A DNA stretch of 64,000 bases, from assembly GCA_000310025.1 (NCBI GenBank), contig FN649750.1, forward strand, positions 3,268,495 to 3,332,494, read 5' to 3'. Origin of the DNA: Ectocarpus siliculosus (lineage: Eukaryota; Sar; Phaeophyceae; Ectocarpales; Ectocarpaceae). Every line of letters begins with the position of its first letter. The stretch's first letter is position 1. Under the pieces are notes generated by a model, which ran no database searches, had not been told where the DNA came from, and saw only the letters and a list, made by a program, of their open reading frames with translations. Positions 17,062 through 64,000 of the stretch are shown here, one piece after another. The translations under genes and the position numbers were made by a program.

Positions 17062-21905
<4,844 letters not shown>

Positions 21906-22904: not shown

Positions 22905-25900
22905 ATGACGTCCGTACGACGGGTTTCTTCGCTCTTGGCGCTGGGAGTGGCGCTCTTCGCTGCTGGAGGTGCCGATGCTTTCACCACGACATCTGGGTAA
23001 GATACATGGCAACAGAGAGAGAGCTTCGATAACGTCCATATATCCTTAGTGGTTGGTTTACTGGGCCATCGTTGCATCTGGTCGGGCAGCAGTTAGAAGA
23101 CCGCGTCTCCATTGCACGCATGAATGAATGCATGCATCACATGAGCCGCTCTTCCGACGACACATGTGGCGTGGTGCAGCAGTACACTCTCGGAGTCGCT
23201 GATTGGAGGCGGCATAGTTGTCTCGTAGACTTGGCAGCGAATCCACACGAGTAGAGGCAACCGTGGTGCTGCGGTTGAGAAGGTGTTATGACTTGTTGTG
23301 TTCGTTGTTCAAGCCATGAGTATTTTGGGGGGGAAAGCTGCCCCACGCACATGAACGCGCCGCTCTAACCGGGGTTAGCTTGTCATTGCCCCGCTTGCCA
23401 ACACCCAGCTTGCTACTTGTATGCCCACACAGCATCAAAGTGGGCAGTGGATTGTTAGGAATCAACCCGTAGCATTTGACATTTTGACGTCAAAGGTGTA
23501 TTCATGCGGCTAGCTTGGTACTGCGTGTCCTGCTGTCCTACTGGCAACAAGCATTTTTCCTATGTATGTCAGCCCCGTACCGGCACGTGTCAATTAACTA
23601 TCCACCCGTCAACTGCCCGAAGCTTGGAGCGCAAAATAGGCCACCTCTGCAGTCTCTGTAGAATGTCACGTACGACAACGACAACAGCACGGGGGCATGG
23701 TGTTGAGCTGCCTGCTGCTGTTGCGTGGCGCTATGAAAAACACCAACATTTATGTAGTGTATGTAATGTAGGCGAAATCGAAATCAACCATCTACCGCCA
23801 AAGATCAAGATTAATCTTGTCGCGTAGCATACGGTGGGTGTCTTTGTTTCGCCTCCTCGAGCTCACCGAATCTACCGTCGTGCATGTATGTTTGACGCTT
23901 GCGTGTGCCTTGTCCTCCAACGGTAGCCGTGTGGGTGTAACCACCAATGCCCGACGGCTCGAGCGGGCAGCAGCAGCAAGCACGCCCTCCTCGGTTCGGG
24001 GCAAGCGACGGATCACCCCGACAGCCGTTTCCGCACAGCCAACGGAGAAGGCGGTAGATGCCGGCAAAGATACCACGGACCCTTTGCTGCTGCGTGCGGC
24101 TCGCGGAGAGGTACGTCTCCCTTGTGTGCGGCTCAGTGACTGCCTGTGGCGGTTGCGTCGAGATTAGTCAAGGCGAACGTTATGCTCCTGTAACGTGTGT
24201 TATGAAGCGTGAGTGACACGTGTCACAGTTTTTGTGTTAGATGAGCGTGCTGGGGATATTGCTGTTGGTGCTGTTAATTTTGCAACTATCGACGTGCTGC
24301 GGCCAACGTTTGGCCGTTTATTTGAAACGTCAGCCACGTAATGCTCATCGGGTACCACCGTACGGCAGTATCAGGCTCCTTATTCCATACCCAACCCGAA
24401 GTACGGGATGCATGTGTCAAGAGCCATCTCAGCAGCAGTCTACGTACGACTCCAAAACGTTGCTGGGCGTCCGAGTTGTGATGAATGGTAGAAGCAACGC
24501 GTGTGCATAGCTCTTGGTTCTGGGTTTTTCGCAGAATGTAACAACGTGTGCGTGGTTGTCAGCTCTACTTGTTTGCTTGACACCGTTTGAGCAGAAAGTG
24601 GAGCGAGTGCCGGTGTGGATGATGCGGCAGGCGGGCAGGCACATCAAGGAGTATCGGGATCTCGTCCAAAAGGTGGGTTTGTGAGCTGGAGCAAGATGTT
24701 GGTGGTGAAGAAAGCTGCGGCGATGCAAGGTCATGCTTTCGGCAATAATTCAGAAGCTTTTTGTGGCACACAGAAGGAAGAGAAACAAATTTGAAAGCGG
24801 TAGGTTCTTTGATTGTAGCATTGTTTCTAATTGGTATTTTGAGCAAGAAACCTGACGAGTATTGGGTTGCAGTGGGCAGACACTCGTTTCCCAGCGCTGC
24901 CCCCGGGGCTTAATGTTGCAGAATACTAGACTGGCAGCAGCTCTCCGGTATGTTCAAAGCAACGGCCTGGTGCGCGCGTCAATGGTATTATTTAGGCTGG
25001 GTGGGTTTTCCGCCGTCACATCGGCCACGTGACGTCATGCAATACGTGCGTTTGGTACGCTGATACGGTTATCATGGTCGAGTGTCGTTGTAGTGTCGAT
25101 GGGGCCTATTTAGTGTCGTTGACCCAGCTTGTCCTGTTTCCACGTCGCAGCACCCTACCTTTAGGGAGAGGTCGGAGACCCCAGAATTGTCAACTGAGAT
25201 CTCTCTACAGCCTTGGAGGAACTACAAGACTGACGGCGTTATCCTCTTCTCCGACATCCTCACACCTCTCCCGGTAAGCGAGGCAGATATAGAAAGAAAA
25301 TCAATCCCACCGTGTTTCAACCCTCTTTCTGGGAGACGATTTGTAACGTTGCGCCCGATTTCTGCATGTGTACGAAAGACGTATCCATACTATGGTTTAC
25401 CTTTCTCTGAAGTCTGTTGTTGATATAGAAAGTACTCTCTCTGGAGACTATGATAGGCGTATAGGAAAGTCTAGCTCCGTGGTAAGGTTGATGCAAATCC
25501 ATGTTCCCCACACTCTACGTTGTGCCAGCTCTCGTGTGCGTTTATGCTACAGCTCAACGAATTGACTCGACTCCCTTGCTTGATTTGAAAGTCTTACTGT
25601 GCGAATGCGTGTTGGAATGGGATGCCGCCATCGTCATGGTGGGTGCTGCTAGATTGACGGACAACAACGGTCTGCGTTCTGCTGACGATAGCGACACATG
25701 ACAACCAACTGGTCGAAACTGCAGCGACTCTCCCCCTTTGGCTAGCTGCGTGGAGAATGTTGAAGTCTCATATACCCTCAACCCTGCCTAATTTGGTTGG
25801 TGTGTGCCATGGGTGTCTCGCGGTTATCGCAGGGTATGGGCATCGATTTCACCATCGAGGAGAAGGCGGGGCCGAAGATTCCTCCCATGCGAACATGGGA

Positions 25901-28900
25901 TTCGGTAAGTCTCAGCACCTGGCACTCACGCGACGTGTCTTGAGTCAGTCGATCGTCGGCTTGGGACTTGCTTTGCATTCACACCCTGTTCATTTGGAAC
26001 ATCGTCAGTCAGCGAAATCTCTGTCCACTGAAAGAACCATTGTCGTTTGCCAGCATGGGCGCTTCGCCCGATAGTTGTCGGCATTGCGAAGGCGCTTGTT
26101 GTCAGAGTGCCTGTCTCACACTCGATTAGACTGTTGACATAGCGCATGCCCCGCTGCACCAGGCTGTACCGTGCACCACTGCTGTTTGGTTGTTTTTCGC
26201 GTTCCCGTGGCATGTGGCGTACGCAATATGCGCATAGTCATGTCTCGGTGAGTCGCGTCGTGCGCCAAACGTGCTCTGCTACCTGGGTTCACAAGCGAGC
26301 GTTTGATGAACGTGTGATGAACGCGTTGGGTGTTCCGGCTCTTGCAGATGAAGAAGATGCACCCCATCGACCCGGAGAAGGCGTGCCCCTTCGTGGGACA
26401 GACTCTCAACGAGCTGAGGGGCGTTGTCGGAAACGAGGCCACCGTGCTCGGCTTCGTCGGCTGTCCCTACACGCTGGCCACCTACATGGTCGAGGTGAGG
26501 TCATGTCGCTCGTAGGTGGTGGGTGCTCTCAAATATCATGTCGAGTAGGTGCCGCTAGCCCCCGTATTGCACACCGTGGAAGTGTTGGCGTGAGGAAAGG
26601 AAAACGGTATTGTAGTCGCCCATTCCCGGACTTGATTCCAGGTACTGTAGGTGCCCATTGCTGGACTTGCGTGTCTTTCATTCTATTTTGGCTGTTGCTT
26701 TACTGCTGTAGGATCGATGTTACCGAAGGTACATCACGTTTGCGACGAAAGGATTAGCTTGGCCAGACCCACCCTAGGCGGGTTGGCATTCCAGCGATCC
26801 GGTCGATTAAGGCCAAGCTCTAAGCCCCTAAGCGTCAGCCAGGAGGTCTCGTGGTTAGAGGTTCTATGATACTGCAGGGTACATGTGGCAATAGATTCGC
26901 AGCACGGGAAGACCGAGTTCAGGGCCCTTAAAAGGTACCTGGTACAGCGTACAGCAGTAAACTTGAAGCCATTGGCGGCCAAAAAATGGCATTGTGCATT
27001 GTGTATATGATAGCGGTGTAGCACACTTCAGGCAGGAGCTGAGTTTCTGGCATAGTATGTTCACGTTACTCCCGTCCACTTTCGATGTCATGCGTTGGAC
27101 ACTGTGGTGGAACTTGGACCGGACCAACGACCAACAGGGCAAGACCTCCAAGGAGTACCTGGAGATCAAGAAGATGGCGTTCCTGGAGCCCAAGCTTCTG
27201 CACGCCATGCTGAAGAGCCTGGCTGACTCCATCGGCGACTACGCCAACTACCAGGTAACCAAGCGAGCAACGTTTTTTCTCAGTTCACGGTGTTAAGTAC
27301 TATTGGTACCGCGATTTGCTTGGTATTGAGTTAACGTCTAATATGAAACTACCGGTTCTCTTTACCTGAACTTACCCATTTCATTAGCAGACCCCACTGC
27401 TGTATCTACGCGTACGTCGAACCTCAGGTCATAAGAGCTGCAATGAAATGTGAAAGTGCTCGTTCTTCAATCTGTGTTATTTCGTTATTTTGGCACGATG
27501 GCAACCACGGCAGGTGGACAGCGGCGCTCAGGTTATCCAGGTGTTTGACTCTTGGGCGGGACACCTTAGCCCCAAGGACTACGACACGTTCGCCGCACCC
27601 TACCAGGTAATTAGGTTCACACGCTCATTGGCTCCCCTGTAGTCCGAGTGTTTCGATCGTTCTCTAATAGGAATATCCCCCCAAAATGAGGCAAGGCACG
27701 ACAACATGATGTATCCCGTTCAAGGTCGTCGTGAAGTAGGTTTTCCCCGAAACACGAACGCAATCTGACGGACTTGCTGAGTCATGCTGGCGGGAGGCAA
27801 CGGGTTTGGCTGGTGGGTGCCGGCATGCATTCAAAGGGTGGACGAAGGTTTGCCTGGGACAGAGTTCCCTCGCCGTGTAGATCTATTCAGCTGACCTAAA
27901 TTTGCGTTAACAGACGTTCTTGGCAGCGTTGTTGCCTTCACACATTGAATCGTGCGTGTGGTTGTCGTGCTTCGAATGGGGCGGCATCTCGGCATTCCAT
28001 TCCACGATGTATGGCCATGGCAACACCCCACCGGACCCATCGCATCCCACCAACCGACGTGCGCTCATTGACTCGCAACATGCCTTTTCGTATCCCGCAG
28101 CGAATGGTGATCGAGAAGATCAAGGCGGTTCACCCCGAGGTCCCGGTGATCATCTACATCAACAAGTCCGGGGCTTTGTTGGAGCGCATGGCCACGTCTG
28201 GCGTGGACATCGTATCGCTGGACTGGACAGTTACGGTCCCGGAGGCTCGCAAGAGGATAGGTACGACACATTCACGCGCCCACAATTTGGCGATGCCCAT
28301 CGACTCGCTGATCACCGCCTGCCCTCTGCCTGTTGGGTCGCGTCGTTTCGCGTCGTTGTTTCTGGCGACGGTGTAGCGATTGTGACATTGTGACCCAGCT
28401 TCTCCCGTTTGTCTTGTTTGTCATGGTATCGCTCGCTTCCTGCAGGCGACGACATCGGCATCCAGGGCAACCTCGACCCGGCCATCTTGCACGGCGACCA
28501 CGCCACCATCAAGGTACTGATCTCTCTCTTGCAACACAGCGTCGTTCCTGTTCTCTAGGCAACAGTTTTGTGTTTGTGTTTTCCAATGGGCACAATGGGT
28601 ACATCACACCACTGTACCAATCCTTGGCCACATTGGGTTAGGGTCAGAGAGAGCTGTTCAGTGTTGGGTCTTTCAAATGTGCAATGATCGCGTCCTGCAC
28701 GTGTGTAAGTTCCAAGGATTGTTTTGTCCCATCCGAACACCAGTCTTTGGATATGTTGTTGCTGTGCCCCTTACGATCTAACCCGAGCCTCTCGAATGTG
28801 CCCCACCTCTTGTTGTAATATACTCATAGGAGCGCACGGAGGAGATTCTTCGCGACGGAGGGGGGCGCAACCACGTCATGAACCTTGGACACGGTATTGA

Positions 28901-28964
28901 TGCAGGAACGCCGGAAGATAATGCGGCGTTCTTCATAGACACCGTCAAGAACTTCCGCTTCTGA
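22905..28964 (+). CDS. hemE: Uroporphyrinogen decarboxylase, plant/cyanobacterial type, plastid-targeted
   Basis: Decarboxylates uroporphyrinogen III to coproporphyrinogen III in the plastid, feeding haem and chlorophyll synthesis. Eleven exons keep phase throughout: 22905-22996, 23927-24110, 24595-24672, 25151-25273, 25833-25904, 26348-26494, 27138-27254, 27514-27606, 28101-28260, 28446-28513, 28830-28964. They encode 422 residues, a normal size for a precursor. The signal peptide ends at GGADAF (Phe26 at +1) and is followed by a basic Ser/Ala transit segment. Family motifs are [12 protein letters not shown] (substrate arginines), FSDILTPLP (catalytic Asp), LATYMVEG (Tyr), [12 protein letters not shown] (Ser) and [12 protein letters not shown] (His), so every key active-site residue I looked for is present. 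The start Met is the one preceding the hydrophobic stretch. Confidence 0.95.
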
Positions 28965-33400: not shown

Positions 33401-36400
33401 CTGAGCGATGGGTTTATGGGAGTTGTTCACAATGTTCTGTATCACTGTCACTCTCGCTCACCAATTTGACCTGGATGGATCGATTGCACGGAAGTCAAAC
33501 GTGGTGAACATGAAAGGGACCCACAGCCCCTACAGTATTCTGAAACACCGCCAAGCATTCGCGACACAATACAACTTGGTGAACGCTTTCTGTAGGCGCA
33601 GCACCGCAAAAAAGAAAGGGAACGCTCTCACCTTCGTGGTCATGATTGGGGTCTTGAGGTCCTCTGCCCATATTCTCGCCGTCCAATCACCAACGGTCAT
33701 GAAGTACTTGTTTTGAGTTGGGTTACGTTGGATGCTATAGATCGGACCGTGGTGTTTACCCGCGCCCATGTCGAACACACTAATACCGTTGTTCTGCTTC
33801 CTGTTTCGAAGGTTGACCTGACAACAATGTCGGTTGCAGACAACAGAAAGGAAGGAGGTAGTCCCGGTCGAGATGCCCTGTCTGAGCGCAAAGATTTACC
33901 TCAACAACGAAAACTCGTACCGATCGCGAGCGACAAATATGTGTCGACTAGATGCGTACTACACACGCGCGCCTACAACACTCAATATGCGGGCCCGAGA
34001 AACGTGCCATACACAACCCCAGACAACTCTCTTTCGTGACCGCTCACTCGCCGTTTTGGCAACACAACCACAAATGGCTTCGATCCCCCACCTACCCGAT
34101 AATGATGGTACATCCACCCCGCCCACGGCTCGCTACTGCACGTGCGAAGTCGGCTTTCTCACCTGCAGCACGATGCCTTGTTCTGTCCCCACAAGGTACT
34201 TAGTCGGCCCCGCTTCCTGGTTGTACTCCATCGAGCTTCCGCCGAGGACCATTCCACCCCCCTTAGAATCCGTCGCCAGCTGCAACGTGTCCGTGGGCTC
34301 GCCCAATCGACGAGTGTCCCACCACATCATCTGGCCGTCCGTTGACACCGATGCGCACTGGTTGCCTGTCACAAAGATTGAGTATGTTTTCAGACGGTGG
34401 TAGAGCTGGCAGATATTGACGATGGGTCGGAAACGCGCGTGCTGTGTCGCACTAATAACTACGGCCGCCATCCTTCGTATCGTATCTTCCGTGCCTCTTC
34501 ATGATATGGTCAAAAGCGGTCATCAACATTTGCAGCTGGTGTAGCCTCTGGCTTGTTCAATATTTATTGATGTAGGTTTACGACACCTCACAGATGCCAC
34601 TCGCTGATGGATCCGTTGTTCTGAAAAAGAGAGACATGTTTCCTCCCCCGCCTCACGGTAAGATTCCTTCCAGCACCTCTCCGCTGTGCCGACACAGTTT
34701 GTAGACAAAGTACAGTATGTATGTATGCAGCGTACCTGTCTTCGAGGAAATCCAGAAGACGTCATAGACTGGATCATGGTGACTCTTTTCGATCACGGAC
34801 GTCTCTAGCGGCACCGCCTGTCCAATCGTAGCGCCGGGCTTTCGCAGGTCGAAGAAGTTGATCAGCCCGTTGTACGATCCGCCCACCAAGTTGTCCGTAC
34901 TCTAGCGTCACAGAAATGATTCCAAGAACAGACAAAGAATTTGTTGAGTTGACCAACTCTATGAGAAATCGGCCAGGCCTCGGTTGTTTGCATTCGGAAG
35001 AGACGCACCGGACTGACTCCTTCCTAGCTTGAACATGGCAGAGTCGTGGGGTGTGGCAATACGAAGGAAAGACTTCGATTTTTTCCCCCACCTGCTGACG
35101 AGCAAACACAATGGCATGCTGCGCGCAACGGTCCGATTCGATGGCACCCTGTCTACACGCGGGGGCGATGTCGGTTGATTCGTTTGATTTTGACTCGCTC
35201 TCACCTTGGGGTTGAATCGAAGACAACACAATGGACTCGGCGGTGTGAGTGCCACGTCCGGGGTATTCGGGTTCATCGTATCCCACACATAAGACTGGAC
35301 CGGCATCCGCGCGTTCATGAACCGTGGGTCTTGGAAGTTGAGAATACTGGGATAGAATTCAAGCAGACCGTTAGTCCGAAGGTGGATCGTTTCACGGAAT
35401 ACAGGGGAAGAAAGTCATGAGCAGTGTGACCAACGTCGATCATGGTTCCGAATAATGTTCCGTGCGTTTGAGCACGATTGTGTTTCACAGCCATTGCTGT
35501 TTCCCCAAACACAGTACAATAGTCTCCTTCCAAGGTGAACAATATTGTTAGAGAATGGCCCCGCTTAGTCCAACCTGTAGGAAACGGCAATCTTCGTCGG
35601 CCCATCGGGATGCCAGTTGATTGATGTCGCCGTCCTCTTGATGCCGTTGACTGCATTAGGGTCACGGAAAACCGCCAACCCCTTCGCGCTTGGTGGTTCG
35701 CTGGAATGATCCACCTCGTCTCCATCGAAGTACTCCTACAGGCACACAGATGTCACAGACAGAAAGTGCGGTTTCTGGAACTTTCATCCCAAGCATTCGC
35801 AAGCTCTACTACAGTACCGATGCCCTTCATTGCGTAGGCCAATACTGTTAGTAATGTTAGTAGTTTTCGACAGCACAGATACGATGCAAATAGAGTCAAT
35901 AGCGACAAGATGAGCCATTTGTTTCGTTCTGTCATGAATCGGCTCCCTCACCTCGTAGATATCGATAGTGTTGTTTTGCTTCATGCACCGCCCGATGATA
36001 GGCCCTAGGCTCTTGATTGCAATCTTGTAATCCTCATCCTTTTCTGCCTTCTTTCGGAACCGGTTCACGTCCGACTGCAGCGACAGCAAACATAGTAATC
36101 CATGTTTTGATGGGTGAGTGTTCAGGTTTCCATTGCTCATTAACTGCTTTCACAACCGGGGACTCGATCGACAGCGGTAAATGCCACATGTAGAACCTTC
36201 GGTGTTGGGAATGTAAAACTGTATTGGGGCAGACTGTTGGGCTCGTGCCTGTAAGAACTGTGGGGGCGATCCGAATATTACAGATAGATAGGAACAAAAT
36301 CGAACAATTTATACAGCCGCGGTGTCGCCTTACGCTTGACCTCCTCGCTACGTGTCCTTGGTGCCATCAACGCACTGTACCATGCAGCTGTAATATTATC

Positions 36401-37989
36401 CCCCCGTCTGCGGGCGCAAGACGAAACCTTTTCATCGATCGGTGATCTGATGGGTTAAGGCTGTATGTCGTGTCTAGTCTACATGATGCGTGTTTCTTTC
36501 GAGCGCTACAAGTCGGCACCCGACGTACTCAGTTCACCTACACACCTGCTCTGTGAAATCGACATCTTTTGGCCAGCCTCCTTCAACGTGCCGCATCGAT
36601 GTGTGCTTCGTGATCAACCTCTCCGTGTTTGCTTCGTGCTCTGATCAACACAGAACCGATCGAGACACGTGTGTTTCCCGGACAGGACAAGTGCAGTACA
36701 TGGTCTTCACATTATAGCAACCAGTTGTGAATAAAACCATAGCAAACGGTCACGTGGGTACGAGCTAACCTGGCTGGCTGCGCTAGACTTACACGAGAGG
36801 GATCGGCGCGTGTAAAAGTAAAAAGTAGTGGAGCCCAAATAATCCACGACGATTGGAGCTCGTGGTGTTTTACGAAGCAGGCATGCTGTCGAGCCTTTGC
36901 TTTCTTACCCGACATATGTGGTGAAGTGTCCAGCTCGGCGACGCTGGGATTCCGCGCGACATAGTTATCATCGTACTCTGTGGAGCACGGCACAGTTTCT
37001 AAGAGGAATGCCGGCACGTCCTTGAAGGAGCAGTGCTTGCCGAACTCGGAGCGGACCTTGGTGTAAAGATATGCGACCTGCAGGAGCGGGAGACATGACA
37101 CAAGAAGGTCAAAACAGTTGCCGAGCACAATGCATATGTTCCGTTGATAGCAGGTGCTCGAGGAGAGTGTGTGTCCACTCAACTCATGGGGCATCACAGC
37201 TATCGCACGCGTTCCAGAACAACCCATTACCTTCCGAAATGTGAACTACTGACTGCGTGTTGGGTTGGGTTGTCACCCGATTTATCTGGACGTCGACCAT
37301 TGACTTGTACACCTTCCCGTAGGATATTGGACCATCAGCCGGGCGGGTGTACACACAAATGACTCGCTATCCACATTTTTTTGCAGGTATATCTTGGTTC
37401 ATGTGACTGCGCCGAGAGTTGACCTCATGGCATGCTTGCAAATGTTAGTTGCAAGGGCAACGGCGGTGTTTCAACAGTTTGGTGCGTGCGCAAGGTCGAC
37501 TCTCATTTTTTCACCCGACCATGCTGTTGTGTCTCACGCTTCTTTGAAGATTCCTGCCCAATTGCTGTATAACAAGTCGGCGTGATCATTAGGAGAACAC
37601 AGCACTGACTCTACAGCGTCTGTTGGGCGTGGTATGGATTAAACCCGGCTCTCTGTCGCGCCGCATCTTTCAAGACGATAGATTCGCGTAGGTACAGTAT
37701 CCCTACTGCTGTCGTCCGTGGACATACCGTATTGTCTTTGGACTACACTGCTGTTCGGCGCCGACTTCAGGAGCTGCCACATAGTGAAGGAATCTCAGGT
37801 TGAAGATGTGCGCTAGGTGTGGAGCAGCTATTAAGATGTACACGGACCATTCCAAAAGTACGAACTGTTGACAAACGGAGATGCTGCGCTGTATGGAGTA
37901 CCATACCGCACCGACAACATTCGACATCTTACACACGTGCTGCTCCTTGACTCTTACCACACGTAACACGCAGCTTCGCTTACCTCCAT
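30454..37989 (-). CDS. DNAI2: Axonemal dynein intermediate chain 2 (WD-repeat, outer arm)
   Basis: Outer-arm dynein intermediate chain, which docks heavy chains onto doublet microtubules. The N-terminus assembles from a coding mini-exon ATGGAG (37989-37984) spliced to 37077-36909 (VAYLYTKVRSEFGKHCSF) and 36640-36546 (EHEANTERL...HVEGGWPKDVDF), matching the family start with all phases agreeing. Further exons: 36074-35952 (AEKDEDYKIAIKSL), 35735-35575 (INWHPDGPTKIAVSY), 35347-35215 (SYVWDTMNPNTPDVAL), 34901-34736 (GGSYNGLINFFDLRK), 34365-34163 (STDGQMMWWDTRR, VGTEQGIVLQ), ~33785-33632 (TVGDWTARIWAED), 33325-33191 (TRMDGVVDIWDYFYRQ), 32750-32646, 31810-31751 (MFEREMKQEKNLE), 31020-30907 (charged coiled coil) and 30555-30454 (acidic tail, stop). 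WD-type signatures recur through the middle. One or two small exons may be missing near 34.0 and 32.1 kb. Confidence 0.94.
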
Positions 37990-44896: not shown

Positions 44897-46561
44897 CTAG
44901 TGCGCTGCGGCTGTCTCCGCCGCGGCTCCTGTCCGAATCAGTTGTTCCGAGTAATCGTGAATGGCGTCTACAAAGGCGGCCACGCTCTTGGGGTCCTCCT
45001 TTCCCATTAGACCCTCACCCAGGTTCGCGATGAGCTTCTGGGGGCCCAGCTCTCTCATCATTGTTTCCGTCGCCTCGCGGACCTGCATTGGCGGGTTGTG
45101 GGTTGTTGCGATGCACGTCAAGAATATTCAGTCGTGCCGGTTATCGGGTTTAGCGAGCGACACTCAGCACCAGAAAAACATGATTTTCGGTGGATTTCGG
45201 GAAAAAGCAGGTTCTTCTATGCGTAGTATACCAACAGGAGACACTCACGTTGATTTCGCTCATTGAGCTTTCATCAGTCAGCAGCCGCGGGTCGAAGTTG
45301 CCCTGTACCACCGCTGGTTCCCTCCCGGTCTCTCTCGCTGCCTCTTCCAGGGCATCACGGGTAGCTTTTCGCCCCGTCTCAGTGTCCATGGTCACCACGT
45401 CGTACCCGGCTGCCTACAAACACAACGGAGTGGCCAATAGTGCGATAAACAGTGCACCAGATGACATCGTAGTCCAAATGGCACGCTGTTGGCGTACCTC
45501 TTCTACGGTATTTCCATCATTGTGGTGAGACAAGACACCAATCGGTCTTGATACATGGGTCGAGCACGTAATAAAGTTGACCAAGGCTCAACACGAACGA
45601 ACATTCCGTTGTCACCTGCAAAGCGACGTTAGCGTACGTGGCACCTCTCGCGAAAACCATCAACGGCACTCCCGGGCACCGCTCCTTCAGCTCAGATGCA
45701 ATCCTGATCCAAAGAACACGCGGTGAATAGAGACAACAACGACCGGGTTTGATATTGAGGCGAGTGATATCCAATTTCCAGGGACGCCGGGTGCTTGGTT
45801 AGTTCATAAGACATAGAGCGAAAACGAAGATCTGATTCATGATAGCCTTGTTTTAAAAAGAGGGAAGGGACACCAATTCATCGATTGGCCAATACCGCTC
45901 CTTAATCACACGTATCAGAATCATGACCGTGAACAACCAACGACCAGTTGCTTGGAAGAAGGCGGAGGATATGGCCGATTGTGTTCAAGCGGCCGATTGA
46001 GACGACTTGACGAAAATAGCCGGATGCAGGGCCACAGCGAGGTCAGCTCATATATTACCTGGTCAGGTACGGCATGGCTCGGTCATAGAAGTGGTCCTCG
46101 CTAATGAACCCACCCATGGCTTCGAACACCTGCAGAATGTCAGCCCCAGCCTCCACCTGGGTCATACACCAAAAATATGGACCAAGAGTGCGGGGCTTGA
46201 GTTGTCGAGAGTGGTGGAACACGAGGGGTGCTATTCCCGCGCGTGTACTTCAAACTATTAGGTGGGATGCGTCCTGCTTCATGGCTGACAACAACCCGCG
46301 CTACTCAAGCGCTTGCCAGACACATATCACGATGCAACACCTACAAGGTTTACCGCACGCACCTGCGCTGCCATATAGTCGATGACTACACCAGTGAGCA
46401 AGTCCATCATCTTTGCTGAAGCCTCAGGATGATCTTGGAGCCACCTCTCCCCTGTGATTGCACAGTGAGTGAAGTCAACATCGCGAAGACTGCATTACAT
46501 CGAGTAGTGGCATACCCCGCTACTGCGCGGTTGAATGCACAGTCGGATGCCGTAGCGCTGC

Positions 46562-46597
<36 letters not shown>

Positions 46598-48684
46598 AGT
46601 AGGATCAAGAACCAGCGCGTGCCTCGGACAACGAATGTGCTCATACTTCATACTTCATACTTCATACTTCAACTCGAAACAGCGCGGCAGAACAACAGAC
46701 AGCTGACAGAGGGGAAACCGTCGCAGTGTATGCATCGCATTCCTCACTCTACTTCGCCTACCGACTTTTTGTTCCTCTCACCCGAGTCGGTGTTCTTCTT
46801 GCTGCTGCCGCCCACCATGTAGAACATGAGCGTCCACGGTGCTGCGCTGAAGCCGATCAATGGCACCTTTCCTTTCAGCTCCTTAGTCACAGCACAACGG
46901 CGTGTCTCACGTTGGCGGCGCATATCCGTTATGAAGCGACGAGTGGTTTCGCAACCCGAACCCTTACACAAAGAGACAATGAACCTCGAGCGTTGCGATG
47001 AATTCAAGACTGACGATGTCGCCTACTGCGGGACGTACGCACACAGAGGCTCCGTCGTGGTACTTGAGTCGACTATCATGGAAGGAGCACTAATGCAAGC
47101 TTGGTCGAAACCATTTGGTTGATTCACCTCCTTGATGCGCGTGACCGCCTGAATCACGTGGGACAGCTTATCCTTCACGTCCACCTCCTTCGGGATGCGG
47201 GCCTCAAAATCAGCGGGGTCTTTGAGAGGATGAGGCACCAGGATTCCTACGCCACCCGGCATTTCCACATCGATTCCCAATGCCTTTGGGTAGAGCAGAC
47301 AAGCGAACGAATGTGCTGAACGAACAGGTGTTCATGTCGGGTGTGACCGAAGATAGAGCAACTCGACAGATGAGTGCATTTACAGCGGCATACTCCCCAC
47401 GACTGGGCGTTGGTCCTCAAGCTTCAAATATCATCAAACACAGAGCCACATCGGAGCACTCCCTGACAGCAGTTGCAATCAATCTCATACCTGTGGCACC
47501 ACGAGGATGTCGGAAAACAAGATGGCGGCATCCAGGTTGTATCTCCGAATAGGCTGCATAGTCACCTCCGCAACGTCATCTGGGTCCTGAAACATGTGCA
47601 ACACACGGCACACAAACGAGAGAGAGGAAACCGGTATTAATAGGTGCCTCCTTCCGGACAAAAAATGTACGTTTGTGAACCGATCGGATCTCCCACTTCC
47701 CACCAAAAACGCGTCTGATCGTCACGGTTGCATACAGGGTCCTGGCATCCTGGAAACCATAGACGCGTGCGGCATTTGAAACCAGACACGAATTTTTTTA
47801 TACTGGAAGCTGCTGGCCTTTTATCACCTGCAGCAACTCCAGGAAGTTCTTTCCCTTCTCGTTCTTGTAGGCGCTATATTCGGGTAGATGCCTGTTCATG
47901 TTTCATGTTTACAGCCGCAGCGGAGGAAACGGACGATACAGGTGAGAAATACAATTGTCGGGCGATGGCGGAAAGTGTCACGGGCACTAATTGTGCACGC
48001 TGAAAATGTTAAGAGTGAGTGTTCACCGGGAAAGATGCTGTCTCTGGGTCTGTGCGGAGGCAACCATTTTCAGCGCCCGCCATGATTCGCGTCGGTGTGT
48101 CGGTGTGTCGGTGTATCGGTGTACACGTGTGCAGTTGAGAGTAGATAATGATCCAACAGCCAGCGCAAAGATAAACTGGATAAGCGAAGGCGACACAGAA
48201 CCCCGTAACCCTCCATCCAAAGCGCCATAATAGCAGTACAAGCAGCAGAGCACACTCACCTGTTGCATCTACAGCAGGACATGAAACATGTGTGCTACAG
48301 CTCTCGCAAAAATGCGGCGGAATGTGTCGAGGTGGGCAAGTGGCGCGCATCCGCTCATGTTTCTCATGTTCGCTCTATGCATACAAACACATACCAATCA
48401 TTATTGGGTCGCACGTATGCATAGGTGCCTACGTACCTTCCAGCTTGTCGGAACAACCACACCGGAGTACGCTCCACCTTTTCTCCCTTGGCCGCGCGCA
48501 CTAAAAGGTCGTTCTTCAAGGGAAACTTTTCGTTAGCACTGAGCCGTAACGCGCAGGTTCGATGCCGTCCATGTTGAGGAGAGCGAGCATATCTGGGTGA
48601 AGAACTGAAAATGAAGGCCTCCACGCAGCAAACCACCAGCAGCACTGAGAGCACCGCCGTACAGGCACGGTACAAAGCCCTCAT
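44897..48684 (-). CDS. Second, divergent uroporphyrinogen decarboxylase-like protein, plastid-targeted
   Basis: Ten exons keep phase: 48684-48437, 47891-47828, 47586-47491, 47283-47128, 46881-46782, 46451-46363, 46156-46059, 45703-45616, 45413-45249, 45082-44897. They encode 429 residues. The signal peptide ends CCVEAFIF (Phe24 at +1, ASAFAP-like). The core aligns best with animal/fungal UROD ([35 protein letters not shown]), unlike the other copy. The substrate-binding RQAGR and catalytic FSDIL are kept, as is the Tyr of FYMVGG. The conserved Ser of the FES-AGH segment is replaced (VFEAMGGF), and the conserved His of NLGHG is Glu (NLGEG). It may have altered or no decarboxylase activity. No intron position is obviously shared with the neighbouring paralogue. 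The start Met is the tenth codon of the open frame, where the signal peptide begins. Confidence 0.92.
46563..46593. repeat. CTG/CAG trinucleotide repeat, about 10 units
   Basis: An uninterrupted CTG run on the plus strand, so CAG on the transcribed strand of the second decarboxylase. It lies in the intron between the exons ending 46782 and starting 46451. Confidence 0.95.
46641..46670. repeat. Heptanucleotide tandem repeat, four units
   Basis: Four head-to-tail copies of a CATACTT-type heptamer, in the same intron as the nearby CTG repeat. Confidence 0.9.
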
Positions 48685-63248: not shown

Positions 63249-64000
63249 ATGGCCACATTCGCGTCCCGGGTGGCGCTCGGTTCGCGTGTGACTGTCACCG
63301 GGAAAAAAGGCGTGGTAAGAGGGCCAACGTGCAGTAAAATACTCCTCCGGAGTCTAGACTTGTGCATACTCTTCCAAATACTGGACGTATGCATATGTTC
63401 TCATGCATGCTGTGGGCCGGCGCTCGGCGCACCTCCTTGTTGCCCTTTACATAGGTCATCTCTCTACTGGTTTGCGTTATTTTTCTGGATTGCCCTCTTA
63501 GTACTCTTGTCCTCCGTCTGGCAGGTCAAGTTTATCGGGCCAACCGATTTCGCGGCCGGAGAGTGGATAGGAGTTGAGCTCGATCTCCAAGAGGGCAAGA
63601 ACGATGGCCTCGTCAACGGCGTTCAATACTTCGACTGCCGCGAGGGACACGGACTGTTCGTTAAGAAGGCGCAGGTATTCCGCAACTCCGTCACACCAGT
63701 TGAAAACTCTCTCTGCTGCTGCAGGCAACACCAGGCACACAAGGTAGCACTCTGTATTTCACATGTACCAAATTGCACAGCAGCAGTAGCATTTGGTAGC
63801 AGCCGTGGTGAGGTAAGAGCGCGAAACTTAAGGGGGGGCAGAAGAGCAATATTGATGTTGACGAATTTTGAAAACAAACGCAAGAGGTCCAGAAATTGTA
63901 TGACAGACACACAAAGACCAGTCGGGAGGCATCGCGAAAAACAGCAATCGTTGATTCTCGCACAGGGCGGCAGTAGAGGCTGCTCAAAACATACATTTCA
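63249..64000 (+). CDS. CAP-Gly domain protein, N-terminal part only
   Basis: CAP-Gly domains bind the C-terminal EEY/F tails of tubulin, EB1 and CLIP proteins. Exon 1 (63249-63314) encodes 22 residues including LGSRVTVTGKKGV. Exon 2 (63525-63674, phase 0) gives VKFIGPTDFAAGEWIGVELD and then the signature GKNDG and YFDCREGHGLFVKKAQ. The domain therefore starts within the first ten residues, as in dynactin p150Glued and some other microtubule-tip proteins. Further exons lie downstream: a candidate 19-base exon near 63725-63743 is uncertain, and the gene continues past the window. The upstream Met is the only in-frame one attached to a proper donor. Which CAP-Gly family it belongs to cannot be decided from this part. 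Confidence 0.85.
   Translation, partial: MATFASRVALGSRVTVTGKKGVVRGPTCSKILLRSLDLCILFQILDVCICSHACCGPALGAPPCCPLHRSSLYWFALFFWIALLVLLSSVWQVKFIGPTDFAAGEWIGVELDLQEGKNDGLVNGVQYFDCREGHGLFVKKAQVFRNSVTPVENSLCCCRQHQAHKVALCISHVPNCTAAVAFGSSRGEVRARNLRGGRRAILMLTNFENKRKRSRNCMTDTQRPVGRHREKQQSLILAQGGSRGCSKHTF

Follow-up and report, generated by a model that had tools for sequence, protein, structure and literature searches.

The window, i.e., the complete 64,000-nucleotide stretch of Ectocarpus siliculosus contig FN649750.1 analyzed here, carries on its minus strand, from position 48684 to 44897, an altered copy of the gene for uroporphyrinogen decarboxylase (UROD), hereafter gene A. Its splice model comprises ten exons and nine GT-AG introns and yields an open frame of 429 codons plus stop, predicting a 429-residue URO-D protein. 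An earlier note on this DNA had given the coordinates, strand, ten exons and clean frame exactly, and the gene is intact. UROD genes found in the 189 Mb assembly are gene A and two more, copies B and C, while no second copy of gene A was detected; as weak matches could escape, these counts are lower bounds. The relevant features are listed below, with residues in human numbering and the source of each reading in brackets.

48437..48684, minus strand: gene A exon 1, start codon, hydrophobic signal-like stretch, VEA/F site, transit-like tract; from the mature start to RQAGR, M36F with R37 and R41 kept (splice model, alignment)
47828..47891, minus strand: exon 2 (splice model)
47491..47586, minus strand: exon 3, FSDIL with Asp86 kept (splice model, alignment)
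47128..47283, minus strand: exon 4, P106I (splice model, alignment)
46782..46881, minus strand: exon 5, G156A, with F154 and Y164 kept (splice model, alignment)
46563-46592: ten pure GCT (CAG) triplets within intron 5
46363..46451, minus strand: exon 6 (splice model)
46059..46156, minus strand: exon 7, VFEAMGGF with S219A and H220M (splice model, alignment, codons)
45616..45703, minus strand: exon 8 (splice model)
45249..45413, minus strand: exon 9, DTET vs. human DWTV (splice model, alignment)
44897..45082, minus strand: exon 10, IANLGEGL (H339E) and stop codon (splice model, codons)
24595..28964, plus strand: exons 2-10 of copy B, the comparison gene, a plastid-lineage UROD in the same window; its exon 1 ends at 24110
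about 4480-4170, minus strand of another contig (C2): frame-jump stretch of copy C (L009), which has NLGHG
19119-21788, plus strand: amino acid kinase gene upstream of copy B (PF00696 on 21107-21325), by eye an acetylglutamate kinase
34136-37092, minus strand: exons resembling by eye an axonemal dynein intermediate chain; three pieces without Pfam match
63522-63686, plus strand: CAP-Gly domain exon (PF01302)

The few pieces of genes scanned between gene A and copy B gave no Pfam match, and hence no link to heme was seen there.

The gene A protein scores above the cut-offs of both the hemE model TIGR01464 (324.9 vs. 302.95 bits; on the same scale the best matches from 28 lower-scoring bacterial genomes reach 350-395 bits) and PF01208 (346.8 vs. 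23.9 bits). Assignment to the MtaA/CmuA methyltransferases of the same superfamily was rejected, with scores of 69.6 vs. a cut-off of 244 bits (NF004889) and 56.8 vs. 235.4 bits (TIGR01463). The best matches among solved structures are human UROD chains (3gw0_A, 281 bits, query residues 54-416), and the best PDB match of copy B is tobacco UROD (406 bits). With regard to the residues expected of the enzyme, Arg37, Arg41, Asp86 and Tyr164 are all present, while Glu and Ala stand in place of His at position 339 and Ser or Thr at position 219. Gene A is therefore classed with the URO-D sequence family rather than among proven uroporphyrinogen decarboxylases: it is a variant of a universal enzyme of the heme and chlorophyll pathway, with a predicted activity.

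Residues were compared with those of 161 other proteins, i.e., 158 bacterial HemE, human and tobacco UROD and copy B. The bacterial proteins include the best 80 of at least 579 confirmed relatives (at least 593 matching stretches), mostly from Bacteroidota and Gammaproteobacteria. For the other 78, 200 genomes were drawn from the phylum to which a Psychrobacter genome belongs, 183 of which matched and 180 of which lay above the cut-off; the 78 consist of the 30 best, the 20 lowest among the matches listed (the Psychrobacter genome aside) and 28 from lower-scoring genomes. Both samples are selected and not random, the set is without cyanobacteria, Bacillota and archaea, and one row (L160) ends at a contig edge.

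Position 339 is Glu in gene A (E391, codon GAG, exon 10) and His in all 158 bacteria, human, tobacco and copy B. Position 219 is Ala (A264, codon GCC, exon 7), where 111 bacteria have Ser and 47 have Thr, and where human, tobacco and copy B likewise have Ser or Thr. Both replacements had been noticed before, the former as a change in the NLGHG motif, and both are confirmed, as are the intact substrate-arginine motifs (Arg37 and Arg41) and the presence of unaltered motifs in copy B (FDSWAGHL and NLGHG). The GHL segment, previously reported as lost too, is indeed absent from gene A, but this carries no weight because the His of GHL falls at human position 223, a freely variable site at which bacteria mostly have I, V, L, M, A, S or G. 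Further changes concern position 220 (Met; Trp in 155 and His in three bacteria), position 36 (Phe; Met in all 157 readable bacteria) and position 156 (Ala; Gly in 158 of 158), while Lys at position 50 (human Arg50) also occurs in 17 of the 158 bacteria. Unchanged are Arg37, Arg41, Phe55, Phe84, Ser85, Asp86, Phe154, Tyr164 and Phe217. W284T and L192M were dropped as evidence since both sites are variable in the wider set; the former is less telling as Trp occupies position 284 in 133 of the 158 bacteria. The 161 others are invariant at 29 columns, and gene A departs from them at three of these (M36F, G156A and H339E), while a leave-one-out count over the 161 gave no departure for 157 proteins and one for four. 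At a 98% threshold (36 columns) gene A departs at five and each other protein at zero to two, and against the narrower set of 80 loci alone, mostly Bacteroidota, gene A departs at six of 43 invariant sites. As judged from this alignment, the departures of gene A at conserved sites exceed chance. A UROD with replaced His339 was not found in the literature searched (titles and abstract openings). Scans of viral contigs for UROD relatives confirmed none; a degenerate IANLGEG pattern occurred in 12 viral contigs, in which tblastn with the gene A protein found nothing better than E 0.79.

Phylogenetic analysis (LG+C20+F+G4) was performed on 70 rows, comprising 65 of the 158 bacterial proteins (58 of them randomly picked), gene A, copies B and C, and human and tobacco UROD as the sole outside eukaryotes. 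Gene A shared a clade with human UROD and with L010 and L011, both Bacteroidota genes (support 100/98), and copies B and C grouped with tobacco UROD (100/100); a topology forcing gene A together with B, C and tobacco had a p-AU of 0.020. The order inside the gene A clade is weakly supported (98/73 for gene A with L010, 88/31 for these with L011) and long-branch effects are possible, the terminal branch of gene A being the longest in the tree (2.39; human 0.93, median 0.18). L010 and L011 belong to metagenome-assembled genomes and encode HemE proteins 55-56% identical to human UROD, an odd bacterial-eukaryotic affinity. By its position in this tree, gene A is of the host-type (eukaryotic) lineage, while copy B, 16 kb away, is of the plastid lineage. 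The earlier note had called gene A a paralogue, with copy B as the other copy; a recent tandem duplication is rejected as the two are only 30% identical and fall into separate clades. Two UROD genes of separate origin facing each other at a distance of 16 kb would hardly be expected by chance, given only three UROD genes in 189 Mb (probability about 8e-4, by hand arithmetic).

The very long branch would also be expected of a gene losing its function, i.e., an early pseudogene, or of an assembly artefact, and copy C of the same assembly exhibits three apparent single-base frame jumps in one otherwise conserved exon, due either to assembly error or to decay, which shows that base errors or decay do occur in this gene set. 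Nevertheless, we consider such an origin of the altered residues improbable: gene A retains 429 open codons over ten exons with nine intact pairs of splice sites, its G+C content differs by codon position (0.616/0.416/0.686, vs. 0.504 in the introns), and H339E and M36F need two base changes each, GAG being two bases away from either His codon and TTC two from the Met codon. A different splice model was rejected as well. E391 and A264 lie in the interior of exons 10 and 7, flanked by intact conserved residues, so no alternative splicing there restores His or Ser.

Agreement with the consensus, counted over columns ungapped in gene A and human UROD, follows column conservation. Gene A matches it in 31 of the 37 columns with at least 98% conservation (human 36), 24 of 27 at 90-98% (human 25), 26 of 53 at 70-90% (human 45), 25 of 65 at 50-70% (human 33) and 31 of 148 below 50% (human 49). 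This gradation argues for selection acting on the fold during most of the history of gene A, which by the same counts is less constrained than human UROD.

The plastid signal ascribed to gene A in the earlier note is plausible: a putative bipartite signal was read by eye as a motif, together with a hydropathy sum. Residues 11-25 are strongly hydrophobic (mean hydropathy 2.81) and followed by VEA/F, and residues 24-51 contain five K/R and no D/E. Copy C has a similar plastid-like pattern with SEA/F (by eye). In the diatom Phaeodactylum tricornutum, three plastid-located URODs have been described, with one UROD2 variant also in the cytoplasm, and UROD2 and UROD3 are highly correlated with chlorophyll genes (excerpts of PMC11914136). 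Several UROD lineages have also been retained in cryptophytes, chromerids, haptophytes and dinoflagellates, according to excerpts of PMC5115734, PMC8233740 and PMC6078071. With its eukaryotic-type phylogeny, apart from the plastid-lineage URODs, gene A probably fits the "UROD3" slot of the diatoms, an orthology suggested by lineage. Diatom UROD3 is called eukaryotic in origin, yet gene trees are also said to point to a green algal source (PMC11914136, in part), and the UROD3 of one cryptophyte is grouped with those of green algae, Euglena and further complex algae (PMC5115734, in part). As these accounts differ, several lineages may go by the name UROD3.

With an apparently plastid-bound product, changed invariant residues and kept core catalytic residues, gene A may be a repurposed enzyme. 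Excerpts of a docking study (PMC3510221) describe contacts of the product coproporphyrinogen with Arg37, Ala39, Arg50, Asp86, Phe154 and Tyr164 and none with Phe55, Ser85, Ser219 and His339; in a simulation of the same study His220 binds coproporphyrinogen. According to a review, the Bacillus subtilis equivalent of His339 is not close to coproporphyrin when this is bound, and its proposed role is to orient the product once partly decarboxylated; the His is also discussed as a key catalytic residue (PMC10427985, in part). On this basis we tentatively favor a plastid enzyme of shifted specificity, with the acetate-side pocket partly rebuilt and the catalytic core kept. Gene A would then be the eukaryotic-lineage, plastid-directed UROD of the alga, probably of the UROD3 line. 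Arg37, Arg41, Asp86, Phe154 and Tyr164 would grip the pyrroles and keep the product in place, such that the protein could still bind a porphyrinogen and decarboxylate it, while the acetate-positioning pocket would be altered at Ser219 and His339 as well as at 220, Met36 and Gly156. Glu339 would place a carboxylate where those of the substrate would lie, which suggests changed acetate handling rather than simple active-site loss. Accordingly altered, the enzyme would be expected to handle the eight-carboxylate uroporphyrinogen III weakly and partly decarboxylated intermediates better, and copy B, perhaps together with copy C, would make the bulk of coproporphyrinogen.

A shift in specificity is suggested by the core residues being kept while Ser219 and His339 are changed, both of which lack product contact in the docking excerpts; by the His339 equivalent not lying near bound coproporphyrin; by the hemE cut-off being passed by a fold under selection; and by the three plastid URODs of the diatom, two of which track chlorophyll genes. 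On the other hand, His220, which binds product in the simulation, is Met, Arg50 is Lys, the His at 339 has been discussed as catalytic (PMC10427985, in part), and relaxed constraint would also fit the terminal branch of gene A, which no other in the tree equals in length (2.39, with a median of 0.18). Furthermore, the split into an acetate and a product side is imperfect, since Phe55 and Ser85, without contact in the docking excerpts, are kept.

Gene A could instead encode a non-catalytic or weakly catalytic partner that forms mixed dimers with plastid-lineage URODs or holds coproporphyrinogen, thereby tuning heme and chlorophyll flux. UROD is a dimer and its His at 339 is discussed as important for catalysis (PMC10427985, in part), mixed dimers among the diatom copies are predictable by AlphaFold and stated to need testing (PMC11914136, in part), and two sites that the excerpted literature names as key for the substrate are replaced. 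Asp86, Arg37 and Tyr164 are intact, however, and nothing would oblige an inactive protein to retain them. Of the interpretation in the earlier note, the intact gene with a changed active site is thus supported, while a pseudoenzyme is one option and not a conclusion, and we regard it as rather unlikely.

It is also doubtful, if conceivable, that gene A is an ordinary active isozyme, in whose lineage His339 and Ser219 are dispensable and the changes represent tolerated drift. The curated hemE cut-off is passed. Human UROD mutated at His339 reportedly remains largely active, the main effect being a loss of isomer preference (attributed to Wyckoff 1996). Against this, position 339 is always His and 219 always Ser or Thr in the comparison set, and several changes occur together at otherwise invariant sites.

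Returning to the favored shift in specificity, brown algae, or ochrophytes in general, could conceivably all have Glu339 and Ala219 in their host-type plastid UROD, although we would not expect this. If so, an entire clade would have sent a host heme enzyme to the plastid and turned it into a protein handling coproporphyrinogen or intermediates, which would set heme vs. chlorophyll flow while plastid-lineage URODs carry out the bulk reaction. The diatom copies are differentially expressed (PMC11914136, in part); for the several URODs of different origin in the plastids of complex algae, a copy with changed acetate-side residues offers a concrete, testable division of labor.

Among solved structures, gene A is closest to human UROD (1URO and other PDB entries of the protein), with which it shares 43% identity over 348 columns, the same clade and Arg37, Arg41, Asp86, Phe154 and Tyr164, while differing by H339E, S219A, H220M, M36F, G156A, P106I and the plastid-type presequence. 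Tobacco UROD (1J93) and copy B possess the same URO-D fold and belong to the plastid-lineage branch of the same pathway enzyme; they are only 28 and 30% identical to gene A, respectively, form a separate clade and both retain His339 and Ser219. Diatom UROD3, called eukaryotic in origin as gene A is by lineage, is located in the plastid, the apparent destination of gene A too, beside two other plastid URODs (PMC11914136, in part).
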